A stretch of DNA of 33,829 bases from Candidatus Poribacteria bacterium (GCA_012271015.1 JAAXHD010000363.1:1-33829); one strand, 5' to 3'. Numbered from the stretch's first letter, positions 1,692-33,829 are shown. Numbers and translations are program-made. The notes: generated from the letters alone by a model not told the origin.

Positions 1692-1938
1692 GATTAAATT
1701 CTCCGAATTGCGGGATAGATTCGTCAAAATAATGTAAGGCAAAGATAGACCCTAACCTCCCTGACGGTCAAAAAATGCTTACAAAAACTCAATAGTAGTG
1801 TATCATATAAATAGTCCAGCGTCAACGCAAAAGAGGCACGCCTGCTCCTTTGACTTTAATCGCTTATCCTACCAAAAAAACAGAATTGCACTTACAGTAA
1901 AACCGAAAAATAAATAGACATTCACCCCTCCCCTAGTA

Positions 1939-1962
1939 GGGTTTTTGCTGGGGTGTTTCTTC
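1939..1962 (-). repeat. Family A interspersed repeat, copy 1
   Basis: On the minus strand this reads GAAGAAACACCCCAGCAAAA followed by ACCC. The same core occurs at 12781-12802, 16695-16716 and 27126-27149. Compared over 24 bases, this copy and the one at 27126 differ at two positions. Confidence 0.75.
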
Positions 1963-2013
1963 AAGGTTTCTAACCTCGCCGGTGCGGAGTGTCTAATTAA
2001 TTCTAAACTTTAC

Positions 2014-9332: not shown

Positions 9333-10403
9333 CTAAAACCTAATCCTAAGGGATATACGATGGCTGCTACCCAACGCAGGATGGTTCGCAAACGCATAGT
9401 CTAACCCCGCTCCTGCACCTGTGACGAATCGGAGGTTCAACCCAACCCCCGCAGTCAACTGGCGAATACTCTCAAGACTTCCACTCCGTTCTGCCATCCC
9501 AATCCGTAAGGCAAGCAGATCGAAGAGTGTCCACTCGGCACCCACATGCAACTCAACGGGACTCCCCTGTGGTGCCTCGACATCGGATTTGGTCCCAGAG
9601 CCACCCCGATTTTGGATATAGGTATCCAGTGCCAGGACGAGTGTGCTTCGGAAGATAGGAAGCGCATGTATCGTGGCGATACCAATTTTCAGCTGCGGCA
9701 GTATCGTTTCGGTGTGAGACGTAAGATCCGCCGATGGGGGCGGTGTATTCCAATAGAGTTTCGTTGTAAAAGCATCGCTCGCCTGAAGTCCAAGCAGGAG
9801 TTGATGAGATTTTTCTGGATTGGTCATTGCAATAATACCCACATCCGCCCCACCGCCGATGGCATTTGTGCTTCGATACCCACTCATATAGAGGAGTTTG
9901 AGCGTTCCACCAAGCCGTAAATTAATACCACGAAAAGTTGGGAATCTCCAACCGTGAGCAAAGAGAAAGGCGTTATCGGTGTTGTTAAAAGACCCGACAA
10001 CCTCTGGACGGTTTGCGGGTCCGACAGGACGGCTGACCACGGGTAGACTGGTAATAGGGATATCGTCAACGCCGACGCGGAGCCAACTGACACCGATCGC
10101 CCCACGCTTTTTCAACGGGTGGATATAACTAACAAAATCGTAAGCATCCTCCCCATTGAGCGTGGAGTGCATAAAACTGACCTCATATCGAGTGAGTTGT
10201 CCCAATCCAGCGGGATTCCAATAGGGGGCGTAAGCATTGTCACTCAGAGCGGTCCCTGCTCCTCCCATAGCAAGTGCCCGGGCTCCAACCCCAAGCGTTA
10301 GGAAATCAGCAGTGTATCTCGCATCAACGGATTGGAGCGTTCCCACGCAGAACGTAATTATAGTCACAATGAGGTAGAAATTATTTTTTTTACGATATTT
10401 CAT
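9333..10403 (-). CDS. PorV/PorQ-family outer-membrane beta-barrel protein
   Basis: The 356-residue protein has a signal peptide (IVTIITFCVGTLQSVDA, cleavage near residue 28). It then has the PorV-type opening FLTLGVGARALAMGGAGTALSDNAYAPYWNPAGL typical of this FadL-related barrel family, and ends in the aromatic-rich SHRISLRIRF expected of an outer-membrane strand. In the type IX system PorV carries substrates from the translocon to the PorU sortase. It lies 100 bp downstream of the porU-like gene on the same strand, the order also found in Porphyromonas gingivalis (porU-porV). PorV and PorQ cannot be separated by eye. The ATG has no Shine-Dalgarno and sits beside a degenerate repeat. Confidence 0.82.
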   Translation of the reverse strand: MKYRKKNNFYLIVTIITFCVGTLQSVDARYTADFLTLGVGARALAMGGAGTALSDNAYAPYWNPAGLGQLTRYEVSFMHSTLNGEDAYDFVSYIHPLKKRGAIGVSWLRVGVDDIPITSLPVVSRPVGPANRPEVVGSFNNTDNAFLFAHGWRFPTFRGINLRLGGTLKLLYMSGYRSTNAIGGGADVGIIAMTNPEKSHQLLLGLQASDAFTTKLYWNTPPPSADLTSHTETILPQLKIGIATIHALPIFRSTLVLALDTYIQNRGGSGTKSDVEAPQGSPVELHVGAEWTLFDLLALRIGMAERSGSLESIRQLTAGVGLNLRFVTGAGAGLDYAFANHPALGSSHRISLRIRF

Positions 10404-10503: not shown

Positions 10504-13500
10504 TTACCGCAATTTCATCATTTTGAGGATTTCGGTTATATCTTTTTCACCGTCGCGCTGGACTCGGAGTTTAGCATAGTAAACGCCATTTGCGACTTCA
10601 ACCCCATCAGCATCTCTGCCGTCCCATTCCACCATAAGAAATCCAGGAGTCGCCGGGAGCGAAAGTTCCCGGATGAGTCGTCCACTCAGCGTATAGATTT
10701 TCACAACAAGTGAGTCGGCGGGTGCTGTTAATTCGCAAGTGAGCGTCGTTTTACGTGGAAAAGGATTCGGATAGTTGAGAAACGACAGCAGTTGCAAAGC
10801 GTCATGAACTCTGAATGTAATCTGATTTGTATCCGTGTTTCCATGGACATCGCTCGCGGTTAGGCGCACCTCATATTCTCGCGGTTCAAGTTCTGGAGAC
10901 GGATACGTCAACACGAGTTGATTTGAGCCCGGATGATGTGTCACCTGATACGCCTCTGGATTGATGCGTTCATACTCACCGAACGCGTCTCCAATTTCCA
11001 ACAATAGCGGACGGGTGAGGTAATCAAGTCCACTCGGGTCAGTTAATGTCGCTCCGATGAGGGGTTCCGAATCCGTGGCATCTCCCGAAATAAAGTGTTG
11101 TTGATTGCCAATGGTGAGCTGTATATCTGGTGGCACAGCATCGTCAGTATACAACAGTGTAATCGGTCCGAGCTGATCCGTTGTAGCCCGAATTGTGCCG
11201 ACAGGTCGAGTTTGAAACCGAAATCTATCCCCAGGAGCAAAGGAACGTTCGCCTTGCGTGAGTTGAAAATGCAAGCCGTAGGGTTTGTAGGAAAACGGTT
11301 CTTCGACTGTTCCACGCAACGGTTGGTTTCCATCGGTCTGGGAACGCAAAATACCGGTTCTCTCACCTTCAACCTGAAATTCAGTATCAGTCAGGAAGAA
11401 GATAGTCCACTTATCTTCGGGCATAGCGGTGCCAGGTGGAAGTTCAATGTAACTGATGGTCCCCGTCCCTTGGTTATCGTCCCTGAACCCAGATGCATAC
11501 CAACGCCGCTCTTGTTGCGGGGAATCGAGATCGGTTTCCACCTCCACAGATTGTGTAAGGGCAGTTATGTTGAATGTCAGGACATCCCCGAATGCCAAAG
11601 GTTTTTCAAAATTAAATTCTACATTCACCGAGAAGCCGTGTCTAAAACTTGGGAAGTCTGTACTAAAGTTCGCAAGCTGCTCCACTGATGAAATAATTTC
11701 CAACGATCCAAGTTCCCGTGTATCGTCCACTGAAGGTGCAAGGAAAAGCCGATAGGTTTGCGGACCTGTAAAAAAAAGGACATATTTGCCAGTTCGCGTG
11801 CCTTCGGGGTGGATACGGACATCGCGGAGTGCACTGTCTCCAATGTTTTCTTCACTTACATTTGTTGCATGCATGCGCTGCTGTAACGCGCCTGTAGCGT
11901 CGGCGAGTTGTTGGGAAGGGAGTCTTGTCCAACTTCCGAGTGTCGAGCTAAATATATAGATACCCAACTCACGTGCCCGGGATGCGACAGCAGTGTCAAT
12001 TGTATCCGCGACTCCCAAATTATTGGGTTCCTCTTCTAAAGGTGTCTCCTCAGATTCCGTACCACCCAATAATTCTCGCGTGAGTTGTGACCTGAGCGCA
12101 CCGAGGTCAAAGTTCAAGTCGATCGCTACCGGAGAGGCAAGTTTAATGTTGTTATCAACCATTAAGAGGTTCTTGGGATTGACAGTTGATAACTGATCGC
12201 CGACAACGATTTCATAACCGTGAGCGGTGGCTCCAGGAAGCGGCGCGCGGTTGGACATTCCGTTAGATGAGGGTTTCGCAGTTGTATCGGCGGAACTCTG
12301 CCCCACGGTGGCAAACTCCTGTTCATCTAAGGAGCGAACTGCCAGTACTGCTGTTTCTTGAAAGCTACCCGGTGGAACAGTGATAACGCAGTTTCGGTCC
12401 AAACTGGTAATCTGACCTGAAGCGGCTGTTTCTGCCACACCCATATCAACAAAGAGTCGTCGGTAGGAAATATTATCTTCCTCATCGTTTTCAAGGACAT
12501 TACCCGGTTGATCCGCCTCGGTCCTTGTCACATCGATATAGACAAATATGTCGTGTGTACCGAGAGGCAGTTGGTCTTTTAGATTTAAAGTAGCAGTTGC
12601 AATTGGGAGTGTATTCAGCGGATCCGGTTCATAAACATCCTTCCCGTTATCGGAGTCCGCCAACGGCGTGCGTTGTACCCAGTCATTGGGACGGATGCGA
12701 GTCGTCCCGAGGAGATTTACATCGTCGTCAACAAGCATATCATCGTCAACATCTGGGTTACCACTGAAAAAAGCAACTTCAATCGGGGTGTTTTTGCTGG
12801 GGGGGTTCCTGCTTTCCCCTTCCACCTGTACATCCGCCGAGAGGTACCACTGCTCCGTTTTGGAGTTGTAGCCATATCCAATCCTGCTAGTTCTGTTGAC
12901 CTCCACAATCGTAAGATTAGGATATACGTAAGGGTAATATTGAAGCCTGTCGCTTGTAACCGTATTGTTATCTATATCCGTGACTTGCAGATTATACCGG
13001 ATAGCCGAACCGTCCGTAGGGGCGTTTAGTGGCTCAGGCACCGTCCACCATCCGTCTTCTGTCTTAGGAGACTGGGGGGGCGGATCTGCAGGAACGAGCC
13101 GGACATTCTCCCATTCTCGGTTTTGTGGATTACGCCATTCCAAAAGGACAAGGAACAGCTGTTCTTTTTCATCGGAGACCTGAACAGAGATGCGGAATTT
13201 GTCCTCACCGACTAATTCGGGCTTAATATCGAGGATTTTTGGGATATTCACGGTAAACCCGTCGCCACCGACAGCAACAGTCGTGTCACTTTGCGCGTAA
13301 TACTCGACATGAGCATCACCGCTGGCAATGTTTTTCGGGACGGAGAAAGTCACCGCAGGATAGGCACCGCGGTTAACAGTAAGCGTCTTTGTGAGAATAA
13401 CATCTCCGGTATAGTATCTAACCGGACCCGAAATGCCTTGGGCGACGGCTGTTTTCCCCGGAAATAGTGCTTTGACGGTGAGTGAGCCGTTAAAAGTGGT

Positions 13501-16500
13501 ATCAGTAACAAAACGTTTTGTTCGGGTCGCTGCATCGTAAGTGGCTGTTTTTACATGCCCTGAAGCAATTCGGAGGGTGTCCCCTGGTGCAACTGTTTTC
13601 GTCTCAATAGTAGGCTGAATTTCACCATTGGCAATAGCGATTTGTAAGGCAGGATCCCCGAAAAGGGTATATTCCATCATAATGTCGATCTGACCCGTGC
13701 CCTCTGTCATCAGCAGTTCGACCTTTGAGTCGAAACTCAAGGGACCGAGTTGTCGGATGTTCCGTTTAAAGAGCATGTCGAAAATGATGCGGTTGAGTGC
13801 ATCGTTTCCGCTACCATAGGTGAGGCGGGTCGCGCTCAACATGCCGATGATACCGCCCCTCTCTTTGCGTAACAATTTCTCTGCCATACTCGGTTCACCG
13901 GGCTTATCGAAATAGCCGTTGTAACAACTCAGGACTAACATGAAAGGAATCTTTGAGGTTTCCTCAACCTGATCAACAGAAGCATTATCAAAGATTGCTT
14001 CGTGTGCCCAAACGATTCTCCCCCCGTGTCCGGCATATTGTGCGAGTACAGCACCCTCTCCAAGTGCCTCAATGATTTTATCTTTTGCAACACGTTGTGG
14101 CAGGAGTCCAGGATAGTCCGCCGGATGTGCTTCTACTTGGTCGATAACATCTTCAAGGAATACCTCAACGGTCTCGTATCCAAGACGGGTGTGATCTTTC
14201 GCAATTTCATCGAGGCTTTTCTTAAAAATAAAATCTCCAGAGTTGCTAACTTCGTCGTCAGCAACAGAAATAATCCTTCTTCGCCAGTCCCCGTTGGGAG
14301 GTGTCTGTTCGTAATTGATGATCTTGTCAACGACCGCATCAGCTTGGTTTATGTTCTCAATACTGAGCCTACCTATATAGAAATCGGTGAATTCATCGTG
14401 TCCGGAGACGGTTGCATACCAGTGATCTGCCGCGGTCCGTCCGAAGGAATCGGTGCGAATATAATGGGTAGGGATGTATCCAGTCAATTCAGGCGGTTCA
14501 GCATGAATGTCTGTGTCAATGCCGCGAAAATCGAAGGTACCATCGCCGAAAAGGACTACGTACGTCGGTGCTGGCGGGGTCCAAGACTGATACGCATGCC
14601 TTAGAAACGCCTTAATTGCCTTTGAACTCACACCACCATCACTAAAGGTATTGTAAATATCATCGGTTGTAACAACTTTCGTGCGGTATCCGCCGCCACC
14701 AGGAGTCATACGCCACGCCGCCAATCTTTGCGCTGCAGATAGGAAGTTAGGGTGTGTCACAATCAGATAATCAGCACCGTGCACCCCCGTCGCTAAGTCT
14801 GTAGGCGCAACGACCTCAATACGATCAGGTTGACGCAACGCCGTATTGGAAACAGCAATAAATTGTGTGCTTCGGGTATCAAGCACTTGGAAAAGTGCAT
14901 TATAGGAATCGGGGTTAGAAACCCCTCCCACATCTGATTCCACGTTCACACCCTGCATCCGAGCGGTGAGATGCGTACCATCCGTCTCAAAGATATGTAT
15001 CCCGGGGTCACGGAACGCTTCAATTTTATACTGGAGTTTACGTCCTCCGGGAAGTTGCTTTTGGGAGGTCGTATCGGTAGTGGGTGATCTGAACCATAAC
15101 TCGTCAGCAACGGCTCGGAAGAGGCGAGTATATTCGACAGAAAAACGGTTGAGGTAGACATGATATGGATATCGGGTAGTATCGTCATCAACGTTGCTGT
15201 CAACTCTGGCTAAAGACAACACGTTTTGCTCACCTTTGGTGCTGCCCTTGAGCGTATCCCAAGTGCGCAAGGTACGTCCGATAGTGAGTGTGTCTTGCTG
15301 TTCCCACTTGGCAAAGTCAATCCGAACCCCATTAATAGCGACCAAAATTTCATGTGATACCGGTGTGCCGCCCTGCAAATCAACGGAGATACGGGGTGGA
15401 TCGAAACTTTTTGCGACATCGTAAAGCGGAAATTCGAGACGCATCTCGGCGGCATCGCCTCCATTTTTGATACCATCCCAGTACCAGAAATCTAAGGCAT
15501 CAAACCAACCGTGCTTGTCACCAGGCGAGACAGTCTCGGTATGGACAAATTCGAGGTTGCTCGTCAGGTGATCCTCTTCAAAATCCACTTTAGAGCGGAA
15601 GGTGGGAACCTGTGTTGCTGTTTGGTCTGTGGGGCTAGCGGTAATCTGTGGCACCCGCGTGGGAATCCGTCCACTGCTGTCAACTGTGAACCAATACACA
15701 TTCCAACGACTATATCGATTTTTAGACTTATGACCCAGGAAAAATATAGCATCGTTCGGATCGAAACTTCCATCCGCCGCACCACTAATGTAGACAGGAA
15801 CGTCTCTGTTTCCTTGTGTGAGTCGGAGTCTCGCAGGATGCGTACCAATGAGATCTACACCCCAATCGTTTTGCAGAGACGCCGCTGTCACTGCGTAGAT
15901 ACCTGTCCCTTGAATAAACAGCTTATAGCGTGTTCCATTGCCTCCGTTAGGGATAAGCGTTGGTGCGGCAGGATTTCCCCGATTTTGGGGTGCTCGGAAG
16001 TGAGCGGCTTGTTCAGCATTGAGGAGTTGATGCGAGAACGCACGCTCAAAAGCTTCTGATTCTGGTACAACGATCCTTTGATCAGGAAAAGTTTGTGAAC
16101 CGCTCCGTTTCGCTGTCAGCGGTCCTCCCTGTTTTGCATAAGAGAAACGTATGTTCACTGTGAAACGCGAATACAAACGCAGTTGGCGAGTGTTCGGCAG
16201 ATATTGCACAGGATATAGTGCCACTGCGATAACACGTTGGCTACGAATATAGCCTTCCCGCACGATCCGAGCAAGAGGCTGCCCAGGGTATGAGCGATTT
16301 CCGGCAAATGAGCCATTCCCCTTTAAATACGCGCTACCGCTTTCCGACCAGTGCTGTGAAGCTGAGTGTTGTGAATCTTTGTGAGAGGGATCTCCGGATC
16401 CCGATTCATATATATCAAAAACAGGAACGGGGACGAGGCGCACACCGGTGCGTGTCTCAGCAGGCGCGGCGGAGACATCAACTGCTTCAATTGTAGCCGC

Positions 16501-16833
16501 CGCCGGTATACCTAACATGAGGCGAGTGACAGGAACTTTAGGGTTTCCCGGTTCGTCAGTGAAACGGCAGTCAGCGTAATGCACCTCTTGGTAGCGAATA
16601 TTATCTCGGATTACCTCGGATATAGTCAGTTCCGGCAAGGTAAATTGAAGGGTGATTCCGTCTATTGATGTAGTTTGAGTAATCTCTGCGAAGGAATCGG
16701 GGTGTTTTTGCTGGGGTGTTTCCCCGCAAACCCCTCCTACGAAGGTGAGAACTTGGATGCTGAGTATAATACCAAACCTGAATAAAGCGTATACAGGTCT
16801 GTACTCCGCCCCTATTCGTTTTGAGAACAGCAT
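10504..16833 (-). CDS. porU: Giant PorU-like C25 (gingipain-family) protease with T9SS C-terminal domain
   Basis: The 2109-residue secreted protein has a signal peptide (FGIILSIQVLTFVGGVCG). A PorU-type N-terminal region follows, then a C25 domain with PTYVVLFGDGTFDFRG, YAGHGG (catalytic His936) and LVLSCYNGYFDKPG (catalytic Cys970). Downstream are several Ig-like regions, including a CARDB-like one (about residues 1310-1420), and a C-terminal FlgD/type-IX-sorting-like domain beginning FLNYPNPFPRKTTL. PorU cleaves sorting signals and attaches cargo to the cell surface. P. gingivalis PorU is about 1158 residues, so this is nearly twice as long, mostly after the catalytic domain. Two family A repeats are translated within it in different frames. 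No Shine-Dalgarno precedes the ATG. A T9SS-exported C25 protease rather than the sortase itself remains possible; the adjacent porV-like gene favours PorU. Confidence 0.83.
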   Translation of the reverse strand: MLFSKRIGAEYRPVYALFRFGIILSIQVLTFVGGVCGETPQQKHPDSFAEITQTTSIDGITLQFTLPELTISEVIRDNIRYQEVHYADCRFTDEPGNPKVPVTRLMLGIPAAATIEAVDVSAAPAETRTGVRLVPVPVFDIYESGSGDPSHKDSQHSASQHWSESGSAYLKGNGSFAGNRSYPGQPLARIVREGYIRSQRVIAVALYPVQYLPNTRQLRLYSRFTVNIRFSYAKQGGPLTAKRSGSQTFPDQRIVVPESEAFERAFSHQLLNAEQAAHFRAPQNRGNPAAPTLIPNGGNGTRYKLFIQGTGIYAVTAASLQNDWGVDLIGTHPARLRLTQGNRDVPVYISGAADGSFDPNDAIFFLGHKSKNRYSRWNVYWFTVDSSGRIPTRVPQITASPTDQTATQVPTFRSKVDFEEDHLTSNLEFVHTETVSPGDKHGWFDALDFWYWDGIKNGGDAAEMRLEFPLYDVAKSFDPPRISVDLQGGTPVSHEILVAINGVRIDFAKWEQQDTLTIGRTLRTWDTLKGSTKGEQNVLSLARVDSNVDDDTTRYPYHVYLNRFSVEYTRLFRAVADELWFRSPTTDTTSQKQLPGGRKLQYKIEAFRDPGIHIFETDGTHLTARMQGVNVESDVGGVSNPDSYNALFQVLDTRSTQFIAVSNTALRQPDRIEVVAPTDLATGVHGADYLIVTHPNFLSAAQRLAAWRMTPGGGGYRTKVVTTDDIYNTFSDGGVSSKAIKAFLRHAYQSWTPPAPTYVVLFGDGTFDFRGIDTDIHAEPPELTGYIPTHYIRTDSFGRTAADHWYATVSGHDEFTDFYIGRLSIENINQADAVVDKIINYEQTPPNGDWRRRIISVADDEVSNSGDFIFKKSLDEIAKDHTRLGYETVEVFLEDVIDQVEAHPADYPGLLPQRVAKDKIIEALGEGAVLAQYAGHGGRIVWAHEAIFDNASVDQVEETSKIPFMLVLSCYNGYFDKPGEPSMAEKLLRKERGGIIGMLSATRLTYGSGNDALNRIIFDMLFKRNIRQLGPLSFDSKVELLMTEGTGQIDIMMEYTLFGDPALQIAIANGEIQPTIETKTVAPGDTLRIASGHVKTATYDAATRTKRFVTDTTFNGSLTVKALFPGKTAVAQGISGPVRYYTGDVILTKTLTVNRGAYPAVTFSVPKNIASGDAHVEYYAQSDTTVAVGGDGFTVNIPKILDIKPELVGEDKFRISVQVSDEKEQLFLVLLEWRNPQNREWENVRLVPADPPPQSPKTEDGWWTVPEPLNAPTDGSAIRYNLQVTDIDNNTVTSDRLQYYPYVYPNLTIVEVNRTSRIGYGYNSKTEQWYLSADVQVEGESRNPPSKNTPIEVAFFSGNPDVDDDMLVDDDVNLLGTTRIRPNDWVQRTPLADSDNGKDVYEPDPLNTLPIATATLNLKDQLPLGTHDIFVYIDVTRTEADQPGNVLENDEEDNISYRRLFVDMGVAETAASGQITSLDRNCVITVPPGSFQETAVLAVRSLDEQEFATVGQSSADTTAKPSSNGMSNRAPLPGATAHGYEIVVGDQLSTVNPKNLLMVDNNIKLASPVAIDLNFDLGALRSQLTRELLGGTESEETPLEEEPNNLGVADTIDTAVASRARELGIYIFSSTLGSWTRLPSQQLADATGALQQRMHATNVSEENIGDSALRDVRIHPEGTRTGKYVLFFTGPQTYRLFLAPSVDDTRELGSLEIISSVEQLANFSTDFPSFRHGFSVNVEFNFEKPLAFGDVLTFNITALTQSVEVETDLDSPQQERRWYASGFRDDNQGTGTISYIELPPGTAMPEDKWTIFFLTDTEFQVEGERTGILRSQTDGNQPLRGTVEEPFSYKPYGLHFQLTQGERSFAPGDRFRFQTRPVGTIRATTDQLGPITLLYTDDAVPPDIQLTIGNQQHFISGDATDSEPLIGATLTDPSGLDYLTRPLLLEIGDAFGEYERINPEAYQVTHHPGSNQLVLTYPSPELEPREYEVRLTASDVHGNTDTNQITFRVHDALQLLSFLNYPNPFPRKTTLTCELTAPADSLVVKIYTLSGRLIRELSLPATPGFLMVEWDGRDADGVEVANGVYYAKLRVQRDGEKDITEILKMMKLR
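12183..12208. repeat. CTGAT-type repeat translated within porU
   Basis: CAGTTGATAACTGATCGCCG ACAACG inside the coding region matches the intergenic repeat style and encodes VVGDQLSTVN. The same VGDQ residues end the cupin at 1311, where the same repeat is read in the same phase. Confidence 0.5.
12781..12802 (-). repeat. Family A repeat within porU, copy 2
   Basis: The 22 bases are identical to those at 16695-16716 in the same gene. Here codons read PSKNTPI, in the CARDB-like region. Confidence 0.8.
16695..16716 (-). repeat. Family A repeat within porU, copy 3
   Basis: CCCCAGCAAAAACACCCCGA TT is read here as PQQKHPD just after the predicted signal peptide, a different frame from the copy at 12781-12802. 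The upstream bases GAGGGGTTTGCGGGGAAACA extend the element. Confidence 0.8.
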
Positions 16834-27060: not shown

Positions 27061-27125
27061 TCTTTTAACTTTCCCTGCGGTTCGGTGAGGTAGGTTTGGA
27101 TGTTGAAGTGCCTTTCTGTATATCT
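27061..27125 (-). repeat. Family C repeat directly before gyrA
   Basis: On the minus strand GAAAGGCAC...CCTACCTCACCGAACCGCAGGG followed by AAAGTTAAAAGA matches the copy inside anmK (4923-4979) over about 60 bases with few differences. It ends at the base before the gyrA ATG, as another copy does at anmK. Confidence 0.75.
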
Positions 27126-27149
27126 GAAGAAATGCCCCAGCAAAAACCC
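27126..27149 (+). repeat. Family A repeat, copy 4, between gyrB and gyrA
   Basis: GAAGAAATGCCCCAGCAAAA ACCC is the same core as at 1939-1962. It runs opposite to the adjacent family C copy and is followed by CATTACGGGCTACG, the reverse of the GTAGCCCGTAAC motif near 4380. Confidence 0.75.
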
Positions 27150-27183
27150 CTTCATTACATTACGGGCTACGGTTTTCGTACTA

Positions 27184-27350
27184 TAACCCAAGTTGCCACT
27201 TTTCTATTCACATAGCACCCCTCTGGGGTGCGACTTCTCGAATGACCGATTTTCTATAGACATAACACCCCTCTGGGGTGTAAAGAGAAGTTTTCACTTG
27301 AAAAATCTGTATTCAAACGTTCAAGACCTATTAGGTAGCAACTTGGGTTA
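27184..27350. mobile_element. MITE-like element with 13-bp terminal inverted repeats
   Basis: TAACCCAAGTTGC at 27184-27196 and GCAACTTGGGTTA at 27338-27350 are perfect inverted repeats bounding 167 bp without an ORF. Inside are two direct repeats of 31 bp (27200-27230 and 27250-27280, 28 of 31 identical, 50 bp apart), each containing the hairpin CACCCCtctGGGGTG. No transposase is nearby that clearly matches it. Confidence 0.55.
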
Positions 27351-27455
27351 TTATATAGGATTTAGTAGCCTGCAACAACGGCGCAGGCGGGTTTGAGAAA
27401 CGCATGCAAAAATTCTAACGCACGCAATTTCTCCGCAAGGCATAATTATAAAAAT
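27351..27455. other. Gap between MITE-like element and the end of gyrB
   Basis: It holds a GGCGCAGGCGGGTTTGAGAA ACG stretch similar in reverse to DNA near 1962-1986, and a partial family C core CCGCAAGG at 27433 preceded by TTTCT as at 4470. No gene or clear terminator is seen. Confidence 0.45.
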
Positions 27456-30764: not shown

Positions 30765-31301
30765 TCAAGGCTTATCCTTGCTTTGTGTGGTGAATAATTG
30801 CCACAAAGATTTCTTTAGTTCTGCGTCCGGTACGCTTGCGAGAGCCTGTTCAATTTTTTCTAACTGTTCAGGTGTAACTGGGTGGGTGTTACCAAGGATG
30901 GAGTCTTCTTTTGGCGTTTTTGGACTTGAGGACTGGTCTTCAGTTTTATGGAGTTCTGCTTTTATTTCTACCCGAAGGTCGGTGAGAACGGGTTTCCCTA
31001 ATTCGGTGTTTAGGGCAGTTAATATCTTAGGTTTTTCAAACGATAGGGCATTTTTATAAGCAGGGTATTCTGTGTATATCTTCAGGATGCCATTTGACAA
31101 AGATACGGGTACCGTTTTTCTACCGAGTGCCGACCCACGGAGTGTGCCAAAGAGTGTCTGAAGAAGTTCCGGCCAGAGAGCAAAGACTTTTTGTTCAAGC
31201 ATCTTGGACTCAAGGTCATGTGTTCGGATGAGTTCAGTGAGAAGGTGGCGTAGATTATGGGTTTTGTCCATTTTTTCAACTATAGCCTTGCCTTTAGACA
31301 C
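30765..31301 (-). CDS. dciA: DciA-like DUF721 protein (replicative helicase loader family)
   Basis: The 178-residue protein carries the DUF721 domain near its N-terminus: LRHLLTELIRTHDLESKMLEQKVFALWPELL, then GSALGRKTVPVSLSNGILKIYTEYPAYKNALSFEKPKILTALN. DciA proteins recruit the replicative helicase DnaB in bacteria lacking DnaC or DnaI. The remaining 70 residues are Lys/Glu/Ser-rich and probably flexible. The GTG at 31301 overlaps the recF stop by eight bases, which suggests coupling; an ATG at 31271 would give a 168-residue protein and also fits the family's short N-terminus. Its location one gene from recF next to the origin agrees with a replication role. Confidence 0.8.
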   Translation of the reverse strand: MSKGKAIVEKMDKTHNLRHLLTELIRTHDLESKMLEQKVFALWPELLQTLFGTLRGSALGRKTVPVSLSNGILKIYTEYPAYKNALSFEKPKILTALNTELGKPVLTDLRVEIKAELHKTEDQSSSPKTPKEDSILGNTHPVTPEQLEKIEQALASVPDAELKKSLWQLFTTQSKDKP

Positions 31302-32622
31302 TGGGTGCTATCACCTGGGCATCCTCTACTGTTAGGACGTTTGGGTGCTTGAGATGCTGCACGAGGGGTTCAGCACGAGTCGCAGTGATGAAGGTTTGCG
31401 CACTCAGATTTTGGAGGACGTTTAATAAGTACTTTGTTCGCTTGTAATCTAATTCTGAGGTGACATCGTCCAGAAGGACGATTGGATCCTGCCCCGTCAC
31501 AGCCCGGATTAACTCTAACTCTGCCAGTTTAAGTGCTAACGCTATTGTCCGTTGCTGACCCTGAGACCCGTAGGCTCGCGCTCCCTCTCGGAATGTTTCA
31601 ATTTCGGGTTTGACGACGTAGTTCGCCTCCTCTTTCTCATCTTTCTCAGCGTCCGTGGCTTCAGGACAGTTTTCGTTTTCGGGATCGAAATTGGATGTTC
31701 CAAGCGTGTTCTCCAGTTCGATGAGAAAGTCGTCGCGATGCGGTCCGACGAGCGTTGTGCCTCTCTGTAAATCTGCCCCGCGCGATGCATTTAAGGTTGT
31801 GTCGAATTGCGCTGCTATCTCGACTTCAGTTTTGGTATCAAGAAAACCAATCTCTGACGCGTCTGTTGGATTTTCGGTATCTGCATCCCCTGCTGTATTA
31901 TGTGTATTATGCATTGACATATTGTTCCGCATTGTTGCGGGACAATATGTCAATGCGAGGCTTTCTTTGCCACCCGTAAGTTTTTGGTGATTTTGCATAG
32001 CGTAGACTTTTAATTCGTGAAAAATCTCTAACCGCTTTATGATAACTGCAGTACCGTGTGCAACTAAAAGTTTGTCCCAGACATCTAACTGTACCGCATC
32101 TGCTAAGGTCGTACGAATTTGTTTAAGAAGTTCGTTCCGTTGCCTGAGAATCAGTTTATATTCCTGCAAATTTCTTAAATAGATGCTGTCGATTTGTGAA
32201 ATGAGCAGGTCCAAAAACCTCCGGCGCTCCGCGGGTCCACCCTTCACCAATACCAGTGATTCCGGTGAGAAGAGTACGGCGTTAAACTGCCCAATCCATT
32301 CAGAGCGTTTCGTTTGAAGGATCCCATTTTTTTTCAGTTTAAACTGTCCACGCGCGCGCTTCGTTGCCTCCAACGACACCACATCGTCACTACCGTTTCC
32401 CAACGTTCCTCTCAGATAAAACCCTGCTTCGTTGTGCCGAATAAGTTCGCCATCGCGAGTGGCTCGGTGTGATTCGGCAGTACAAAGGAAATAGATTGCC
32501 TCAAGTAAACTGGTTTTCCCTTGGGCGTTCCCACCAATAATTAGGTTGACAGGCTTGGAAAAACTGATTTCGCAATCAATATAGTTGCGGAAGTTGCGGA
32601 GAACAATATTGTTTAGCAACAT
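31294..32622 (-). CDS. recF: RecF DNA repair ATPase, with two lineage insertions
   Basis: RecF binds single-strand gaps and helps load RecA. It begins LNNIVLRNFRNYIDCEISFSKPVNLIIG, has the Walker A GNAQGKTS (residues 31-38), the ABC signature YGSQGQQRTIALALKLAELEL and Walker B DPIVLLDDVTSELD. At 442 residues it is longer than the usual 360-370. The excess lies in two places: residues about 223-262, where DNA contains a long palindrome, and residues about 304-335, an acidic stretch (DPENENCPEATDAEKDEKEE). Both lie outside the ATPase motifs, so activity is expected. The start has no Shine-Dalgarno. It is the first gene left of the origin. Confidence 0.95.
   Translation of the reverse strand: MLLNNIVLRNFRNYIDCEISFSKPVNLIIGGNAQGKTSLLEAIYFLCTAESHRATRDGELIRHNEAGFYLRGTLGNGSDDVVSLEATKRARGQFKLKKNGILQTKRSEWIGQFNAVLFSPESLVLVKGGPAERRRFLDLLISQIDSIYLRNLQEYKLILRQRNELLKQIRTTLADAVQLDVWDKLLVAHGTAVIIKRLEIFHELKVYAMQNHQKLTGGKESLALTYCPATMRNNMSMHNTHNTAGDADTENPTDASEIGFLDTKTEVEIAAQFDTTLNASRGADLQRGTTLVGPHRDDFLIELENTLGTSNFDPENENCPEATDAEKDEKEEANYVVKPEIETFREGARAYGSQGQQRTIALALKLAELELIRAVTGQDPIVLLDDVTSELDYKRTKYLLNVLQNLSAQTFITATRAEPLVQHLKHPNVLTVEDAQVIAPSV
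31911..31956. repeat. Long palindrome inside recF
   Basis: The arm GCATTGACATATTGTTCCGC A (31911-31931) and its complement (31936-31956) form a 21-bp stem with one G-T mismatch, closed by a four-base TTGT loop. It is translated in frame as the start of the first RecF insertion. Confidence 0.85.
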
Positions 32623-32819: not shown

Positions 32820-33080
32820 CGAGTTATCCACAATTCTAATATTAGTACTAATTACGATATATATATTTAATTCTGTAGTAGTAGTAGTAGGGGCTGTGGA
32901 TAAGTGGATAACTCGCTTAAACCCTTATGTCCATTGACTTTATCCTGTGGATAACCTGTGGATAACTTTTTAACTTATCCACAGGTTATCCACATTTTTT
33001 TTAAACTTCTGACTTATCCACAATTTATCCACAAATACTAACAGAGTTATCCACAGGTTATCCACAGGTTATCCACAGAT
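32820..33080. other. oriC: Replication origin oriC with DnaA box array
   Basis: The 541-bp gap between recF and dnaA carries eleven perfect TTATCCACA boxes. On the plus strand they start at 32824, 32975, 32986, 33014, 33025, 33047, 33058 and 33069. On the minus strand they occupy 32895-32903, 32946-32954 and 32957-32965. A one-mismatch box is at 32903-32911. Neighbouring boxes are mostly 11 bp apart. The AT-rich stretch 32832-32875 (TACGATATATATATTTAAT) is the likely duplex-unwinding site. Flanking genes dnaA and recF support the assignment. Confidence 0.95.
32876..32894 (+). promoter_or_regulatory. DnaA-trio and GC cluster of the unwinding module
   Basis: Five consecutive TAG triplets (32876-32890) are followed by GGGC (32891-32894) and then a perfect minus-orientation DnaA box. 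Read 3' to 5' from the box, the triplets are GAT repeats, which is the DnaA-trio element described in Bacillus subtilis, in the same order and orientation. Confidence 0.85.
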
Positions 33081-33163
33081 TTAAAGGGCTTCATAAAGAG
33101 GAAAAAGGGATGATTTCGCATTGAAAAGTGGAAACTGGGGACGATATACCTTTCGGAATTAAG

Positions 33164-33829
33164 TTAACGGAATTGATTGATTAGTAGGAGAATCATTCGT
33201 TTCTCTTCGCCATCTTCCTCAATAATTTTTTCTATCTGTCTACAGGCATGGATGACAGTGGTATGATCTCCCCTGTTAAATGCTTGGGCGATATCTGAAT
33301 ATGACATTGCTGTGAGTTCTCTGCACATGTACATAGCGATCTGACGCGGTTGCACCAGTGCCTTTGTCCGTTTCTGAGATACGAGATCCTCTGTTTCGAT
33401 TCCAAAGTAATCGGCGACAACTGTTTGTATGGCTCTCGACGTGGCGGTTTTTCGATGTCGAATGGGTGCAGGGGGCCCGATATCACTCAGGACCTGCCGG
33501 GCGAAGTCTAAGGTCAAATCTTCTTTGAGTATTGTCGATTGCGCAATTAACCGCACGAGGGTTCCTTCGAGTTCTCGGATATTAGTTCTAACTACTTCAG
33601 CGATGTAACTGAGTACATCATCGGGGAGGTTGTCTAACCCTTGGTCTCGGCATTTCTGCCGGAGAATAGCGATGCGTATTTCGTATTGTGGCATGCTAAT
33701 TTCGGCTACCATGCCCGATTGGAACCGAGATTGGAGGCGTTCTTCAAGGTTTACGAGGTTGTCTGGTGTCCGGTCACTGCTCATGACTATCTGGTTTTGA
33801 TTCATGTGCAGGGCGTTGAAGGTATTAAA
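33164..33829 (-). CDS. dnaA: Chromosomal replication initiator DnaA, 3' part
   Basis: The frame is open to the window edge (222 codons) and begins inside the AAA+ domain with FNTFNALHMNQNQIVMSSDRTP, sensor 1 region. It continues with RLQSRFQSGMVAEI (arginine finger/box VII region) and RTNIRELEGTLVRLIAQ (sensor 2). The C-terminal DNA-binding domain IV has PRQIAMYMCRELTAMSYSDIAQAF and the signature NRGDHTTV. The usual signature is G-R/K-DHTTV, so arginine and glycine appear swapped here. The 5' half is outside the window. An internal ATG at 33805 is not the start. DnaA binds the boxes just downstream of its own gene and unwinds the origin. Confidence 0.96.
   Translation of the reverse strand, partial: FNTFNALHMNQNQIVMSSDRTPDNLVNLEERLQSRFQSGMVAEISMPQYEIRIAILRQKCRDQGLDNLPDDVLSYIAEVVRTNIRELEGTLVRLIAQSTILKEDLTLDFARQVLSDIGPPAPIRHRKTATSRAIQTVVADYFGIETEDLVSQKRTKALVQPRQIAMYMCRELTAMSYSDIAQAFNRGDHTTVIHACRQIEKIIEEDGEEKRMILLLINQFR

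Follow-up and report, generated by a model that had tools for sequence, protein, structure and literature searches.

Why should the same 22 bases occur twice in one protease gene, each time in a different reading frame? The question is raised by a 33,829-nt stretch of Candidatus Poribacteria bacterium DNA (GCA_012271015.1 JAAXHD010000363.1:1-33829; hereafter the window), which carries a gene for a PorU-like C25 protease (porU). As originally predicted, the 22-mer AATCGGGGTGTTTTTGCTGGGG was found exactly at 12781-12802 and 16695-16716 on the minus strand of this gene, and it is read as PSKNTPI in the former copy (...NPPSKNTPIE..., 12788, phase 2) and as PQQKHPD in the latter (...GETPQQKHPDS..., 16702, phase 0); dinucleotide-shuffling the window 100 times gave no match. 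Two further intergenic copies had been proposed at 1939 and 27126. These proved to be related, each lying in a GTAG-footed repeat, but are not full 22-mers, being diverged relatives that have ~15-16 core bases in common with it.

The window belongs to a metagenome-assembled genome (MAG) of 438 contigs and 84% completeness (G000), which was studied within a set of 24 genomes from one Candidatus Poribacteria genus of sponge-associated bacteria, including the single-contig chromosomes G005 and G010, and against 16 outside genomes from other genera of the order and class. L-numbers below are labels of the DNA stretches examined.

Inspection of the copies showed that the spreading unit is not the 22-mer itself but a hairpin that has a GTAG foot and a loop that varies. 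The 22-mer is a junction, joining a loop module to the stem of a palindrome that resembles the repetitive extragenic palindromes (REPs) in having a GTAG foot and a GGGG...CCCC hairpin; a simple independent 22-mer repeat was rejected, as the ends of the 22-mer are one half of a stem and one half of a loop. The module has the unit AAACACCC-MAGCAA-AAACACCC with a period of about 15 nt, and many of its copies lie inside REP-like palindromes with the 5' GTAG foot and hairpin (e.g., GTAGGAGGGGTTTGTAACCCCGA). Stem changes among copies are compensated on both sides (GGGATTACAAATCCC, GGGCTTACAAAGCCC, GGGTTTACAAAACCC, and GCGGTTACAAACCGC). A genome-wide search with the 18-base core, allowing ≤2 mismatches, returned 111 matches in G000 vs. 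0 for a reversed-pattern control.

Table. Repeat elements and their host gene in the window.
Feature	Position	Strand	Basis or remark
PorU-like C25 protease gene carrying both 22-mers	10504..16833	-	Open reading frame, 2109 aa; Pfam Peptidase_C25 (286 bits), Propeptide_C25, FlgD_ig
Site 1, REP-like hairpin element GTAGGAGGGGTTTG[CGGGGAAACACCCCAGCAAAAACA]CCCCGATTCC	16693..16740	-	Inserted at signal-peptide end
Loop module GGGGAAACACCCCAGCAAAAACA within site 1	16703..16725	-	Codon alignment, tree
Site 2, GGGGAA + AGCAGGAACCCCCCC + AGCAAAAACACCCC, two 15-nt modules, one degenerate	12785..12819	-	Codon alignment
Intergenic GTAG hairpin (GTAGG...GGTTTCTAACCTCGCCGG) carrying GTTTTTGCTGGGGTGTTTCTTCAA	1936..1982	+	Sequence
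Intergenic copy GTAGCCCGTAATGTAATGAAGGGGTTTTTGCTGGGGCATTTCTTC, gyrA-gyrB spacer	27114..27170	-	Sequence
GTAG hairpin GTAGCCTGCAACAACGGCGCAGG	27365..27387	+	Family elsewhere module-bearing (relatives e.g. L036, L043)

The element at site 1 folds as DNA at -12.4 kcal/mol (z -3.6), carries the 5' GTAG at the hairpin foot (GTAGGAGGGG...CCCC) as GTAG-type REPs do, and occurs elsewhere in a module-free version, GGAGGGGTTTTTAACCCCGATTCC. Codon alignment with the porU orthologues of 23 congeners (73-88% aa identity) showed that the insert is absent from 19 of the 24 genomes and present in five related species. All five inserts are bounded by GTAGGAGRGG and CYCGATTC, and their interior varies: G000, G008, and G017 carry the module forward, whereas G010 and G013 carry it reversed, and a small GCGGAAATCCGC hairpin is followed by two (G008) or three (G017) forward modules. 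Because G000 is the sister of G010 in the tree (96/96 support), the orientation must have switched two or more times, unless it was acquired separately. The forward module encodes TPQQKHP, and the reversed one encodes VFLLG, lengthening the hydrophobic signal peptide. The original prediction that the repeat is maintained or spread as nucleic acid and not as protein is thus supported, as the five inserts differ in residues and three phases are used among the genic copies (see below); nor does the comparison of 24 genomes, with site 1 empty in most, yield orthologues retaining the same residues at both sites. Other in-frame palindromic inserts were also observed in the porU signal-peptide region, namely a further 39-nt one in G010 (L072, ..GTGCCATTTAAGGCAC..), a 51-nt one in G001 (L079, CAACAACTCGT..ACGAGTTGTTG), and an 18-nt one in G005 (L083, AACTGGGTAACCCAGT), so this region seems to tolerate the landing of several palindrome families.

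Insertion was not confined to porU. Alignments were made of four further conserved genes, which are named by sequence resemblance and not by a family scan: a sulfatase, DUF255, a transglutaminase-like, and a GNAT acetyltransferase gene. In these, G000 carries a long-loop element, e.g., TCGGGG[GAACACCCAAGCAAAAACA]CCCCTCCCACA, and the same positions in congeners hold the 24-nt, short-loop TCGGGGTTACAAACCCCTCCCACA (encoding SGLQTPPT), tandem copies of it, or nothing. Reverse-complemented, the 24-nt element reads TGTRGGAGGGGTTTGTAACCCCGA, that is, a GTAG foot plus hairpin, and it stands in tandem as five elements in the DUF255 gene of G008 and as two and three in the sulfatase genes of G003 and G020, respectively. 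With porU, therefore, five genes in all have an orthologous site at which the alleles are empty, short, or long, each gene with an in-frame palindromic insert that is missing from orthologues, as is characteristic of the Rickettsia palindromic elements (RPEs).

These allelic states are probably best explained by REP-like palindromes that insert at many places, genes included, and whose loops are afterwards exchanged for a shared module, or extended by it, in situ and in either orientation. The insertions are directly visible in the alignments; their mobiliser would probably be a single-strand transposition on the lagging-strand template of the kind attributed to REP-associated tyrosine transposases (RAYTs, TnpA_REP), with the frame-keeping insertions surviving. 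The loop changes at fixed sites are also observed, and the exchange behind them may most simply be template switching or gene conversion involving hairpins scattered over the genome, in which a donor could align both ways because the GGGG/CCCC stem is self-complementary. Within genes, the module retains the orientation whose reading gives hydrophilic residues. Alternatively, only whole palindromes move, and the long- and short-loop forms are two REP subfamilies copied by RAYTs with no exchange in place. Long-loop members of one family do stand at many loci, as expected from unit amplification, and loop variants coexist within REP families of other bacteria (PMC3733652). However, in the sulfatase, DUF255, and transglutaminase-like genes the long loop of G000 lies exactly at the congeners' short-loop position, and the porU insertion common to five species shows several loop states, so that under this alternative each case would require an excision followed by a new insertion at the identical base, and we consider it unlikely.

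In line with the replacement of resident loops preferred here, several hairpin families exist both with and without the module (e.g., TGTAGGAGGGAACTCCGATTCC vs. TGTAGGAGGGTGGAAACACCCCAGCAAAAACACTCCGATTCC, and GCGAGGTTAGAAACCTCGCC vs. GCGAGGTTAGGGGGAAACACCCAAGCAAAAACACCCCACC). The usual change from the module-free to the module-bearing form is from ...AA/CCC to ...GGAA-ACACCCMAGCAAAAACA-CCC, mostly a net +17 to +22 nt joined at AA/CCC, and the left boundaries of the module vary (GGGG, GAAG, GCAG, and TGG). A fixed-length mini-transposon was rejected, given these varying boundaries and net gains of +12, +15, +17, and +20 to +22. At site 2, most congeners retain an ancestral GGCATAGAGGTCCC-type sequence, and the module residues were found outside G000 only in one species, G013, which has one module, with AGCAAAAACACC replacing GGCATAGAGGTC at unchanged length; G000 has an extra 15-nt degenerate unit compared with G013. 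A 17-nt module that acts as a minimal mobile element, inserting at AA/CCC in hairpins independently of REPs, would account for its presence in several hairpin families, in contexts without a recognised hairpin, and at site 2 without a GTAG foot. Yet the variable left boundaries and gains of 12 to 22 nt do not fit a fixed element, target duplications were not seen at the compared hairpins, and we know of no mobile element so small, all of which makes this explanation improbable. A tentative extension, which we hold possible but doubtful, is that the ~17-23-nt loop sequence propagates independently between hairpin families, copied from loop to loop in either orientation owing to the self-complementarity of the stems; if true, it would be a second selfish layer in REP loops and, via REPs, inside protein genes.

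The reading frames of genic copies were then considered. Among 147 module copies examined, 19 lie within open reading frames (ORFs) of ≥250 aa, so that the copies are mostly outside long ORFs; all 19 are in the sense orientation, and they use all three phases (8/4/7), in agreement with the frame change seen within porU. Because the module has no T, no stop codon arises in any of its six frames. The sense reading gives hydrophilic residues and the antisense reading is hydrophobic, and purifying selection against the latter would be enough to account for the orientation bias. The same bias might suggest selection on the encoded peptide, with linkers such as ETPKQKHP and HPSKNTPP being functional and recurring by convergence or by exchange as protein. 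This is very unlikely, since the three frames give three different peptides without residue conservation among orthologues, most copies are outside long ORFs, insert-free orthologues retain the gene, and at site 1 the residues of G010 and G013 (VFLLG) come from the opposite strand. In another Poribacteria species (PCPOR4, L165), a 2133-aa protein was also observed to carry two module copies (2410 and 4196) in two different frames.

The distribution of the family was assessed with the 18-base core at ≤1 mismatch. The module was present at 11-114 copies in 23 of the 24 genus genomes, and no copy was found in the congener G022 or in the 16 outside genomes; an exact 21-mer scan of species genomes gave, among the matches listed, only Candidatus Poribacteria, and absence outside the genus rests on these 16 genomes and on the listed matches all being Poribacteria. 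The host hairpin occurs at 19-193 copies in all 24 genus genomes and at 0-1 outside. Module copy number varies tenfold between close species and is not correlated with that of the host hairpin across the 24 genomes (Spearman 0.05, p=0.83). A phage origin was rejected, as IMG/VR gave one module match and zero host-hairpin matches. The viral contig in question (L373, IMGVR_UViG_2740892559_000001) has one exact module copy and is possibly a provirus or a Poribacteria host fragment.

A DNA-level selected signal, such as an uptake signal, a Chi-like site, or a protein-binding site, would likewise be dispersed in genic and intergenic positions and biased with respect to replication. Uptake and Chi-type signals, however, arise mostly by point change with length unchanged, and the gains here come as indels of 12-48 nt; with zero copies in one congener and tenfold copy variation among close species, such a signal has little probability. 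That the family is an artefact of metagenome assembly or a chimeric bin is hardly credible: although G000 is a fragmented MAG, the family is present in 23 genomes, including the single-contig G005 and G010, with intact frames and orthologous flanks.

Strand bias relative to replication was determined with oriC of G010 set from a cluster of DnaA boxes at 2.348 Mb, the only one confirmed by a full cluster, and with oriC of G022 and G005 placed by gyrA/gyrB synteny, no exact DnaA boxes being found in G005. The GTAG strand of the host hairpin lies preferentially on the lagging-strand template in G022 (37:8, p=1.5e-5) and G010 (21:8, p=0.024), and the module itself is biased in G010 (51:21). Composition does not explain the bias in G010 because its GC skew is near zero and changes sign (19 samples), and a pure composition bias was accordingly rejected. 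Targeting of the lagging-strand template is established for the IS200/IS605 relatives of RAYTs (PMC6006769).

Candidate mobilisers are present in the genus, Y1_Tnp proteins being found in 23 of 24 genomes. Of nine examined, six exceeded the cut-off of NCBIfam NF047646 (REP_Tyr_transpos), one was an IS200-type transposase, and two fell below the cut-off. Most of these RAYT genes lie among GTAG hairpins, and two that exceed the cut-off (G020 L336 and G005 L341) are surrounded by GTAGGAGCGAGCTGCGCTCGCGAT, a variant of the porU family with a changed stem, the related stem flanking them being GTAGGAGCGAGC. A hairpin like that at 1936..1982, but module-free (GTAGGCGAGGTTAGAAACCTCGCC), adjoins a RAYT gene in G010 (L331). 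In G008, the C-terminus of a RAYT (L333:1833-2363) itself reads MEVSGLETPPTSS; a hairpin element of the porU family appears to have entered this gene.

Several observations weigh against insertion of REP-like palindromes with subsequent loop exchange. Site 2 has no GTAG foot, and in the 1939 copy the module sits in an arm and not in the loop. No RAYT flanked by the exact GTAGGAGGGG / GTAGGAGGGGTT family was found among those examined, none matching in the 84%-complete G000, whose three Y1 proteins all lie beside other hairpins, two of them below the RAYT cut-off. In G005 the strand bias fell short of significance (30:19, p=0.15), and the exchange in loops is read from its end states only. Lastly, classification by flank pattern assigned 64 of 250 copies to eight hairpin families and left 186 unassigned, so that the module may not always be inside a REP; this classification was not used for proportions, as most copies were unassigned, in part since long mosaics of repeated words (GAAATTGAG, TACGCAGAAA, and CCCTATCAAGGG) contain many of them. 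Intergenic mosaics of this kind, at L032:16235, L043:12388, and L039:15198, are made of recurring 9-15-nt words (GAAATTGAG, GAAATACGCA, AAGCAAGGG, and CCCTATCAAAAACAC) and extend up to 75 nt.

REPs are usually regarded as extragenic, and loop differences among them are given little weight. Here, within one genus, REP-like insertion into conserved proteins can be followed gene by gene, and then loop change, close relatives having kept empty, short, long, reversed, and tandem forms; both REP insertion from the lagging-strand template and loop exchange between dispersed hairpins thereby become testable. The host hairpin elements belong to the known REP type, and the new part is the loop module that is common to families and reversible at an orthologous site. 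Like GTAG REPs (RAYT/TnpA_REP, REPtrons, and bacterial interspersed mosaic elements), they are 20-40-nt hairpins with a 5' GTAG foot in tens to hundreds of copies, RAYT genes are flanked by GTAG hairpins within the genus, and some copies lie in ORFs; loop variants and intragenic units of REPs were already described (PMC3733652, PMC8266576, PMC2817692). Unlike in those systems, the Poribacteria loop module is common to several REP families with different stems, can be found either way round at one orthologous site, and lengthens by ~15 nt at a time.

Similar to the RPEs and their Wolbachia counterparts, the elements are in-frame palindromes in conserved genes that leave the gene intact (PMC2229807), and RPE-4 and RPE-6 have been equated with REP-type repeats (PMC3733652). 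However, first-kind RPEs are about 105-146 bp and belong to Rickettsiales, while the Poribacteria inserts are 24-48 nt, use several frames, and change their loops after insertion. DNA is also inserted into REP palindromes by IS1397, ISKpn1, and ISPpu9/10 (PMC1525189), but these are full insertion sequences with a transposase, while the module is about 17-23 nt with variable boundaries. The lagging-strand-template bias, seen in two of three genomes, resembles the single-strand transposition of IS200/IS605 (PMC6006769), although in Poribacteria the bias is statistical and the transposition would be its proposed cause. The literature searched for Poribacteria with palindromic repeats or REP-associated transposases gave no account of the porU hairpin family.

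GTAG was also found at 1936 and 27170, and an Rfam scan of the window gave no match above the gathering score. The insert in the gyrA-gyrB spacer is absent in G010, G022, G008, and G005; the spacer (27061-27455) measures ~395 nt vs. ~120-200 nt in these genomes and holds several repeat families, including two CACCCCTCTGGGGTG palindromes. Eleven DnaA boxes (TTATCCACA) lie at 32824-33082, between the dnaA 3' end (33164-33805) and recF (31294-32622), with gyrB and gyrA adjoining; this cluster is the chromosomal origin, and porU is 16 kb away from it. Directly downstream of porU, a gene at 9333-10403 weakly matches UPF0164 and is possibly a PorV/PorQ-type partner in type IX secretion.

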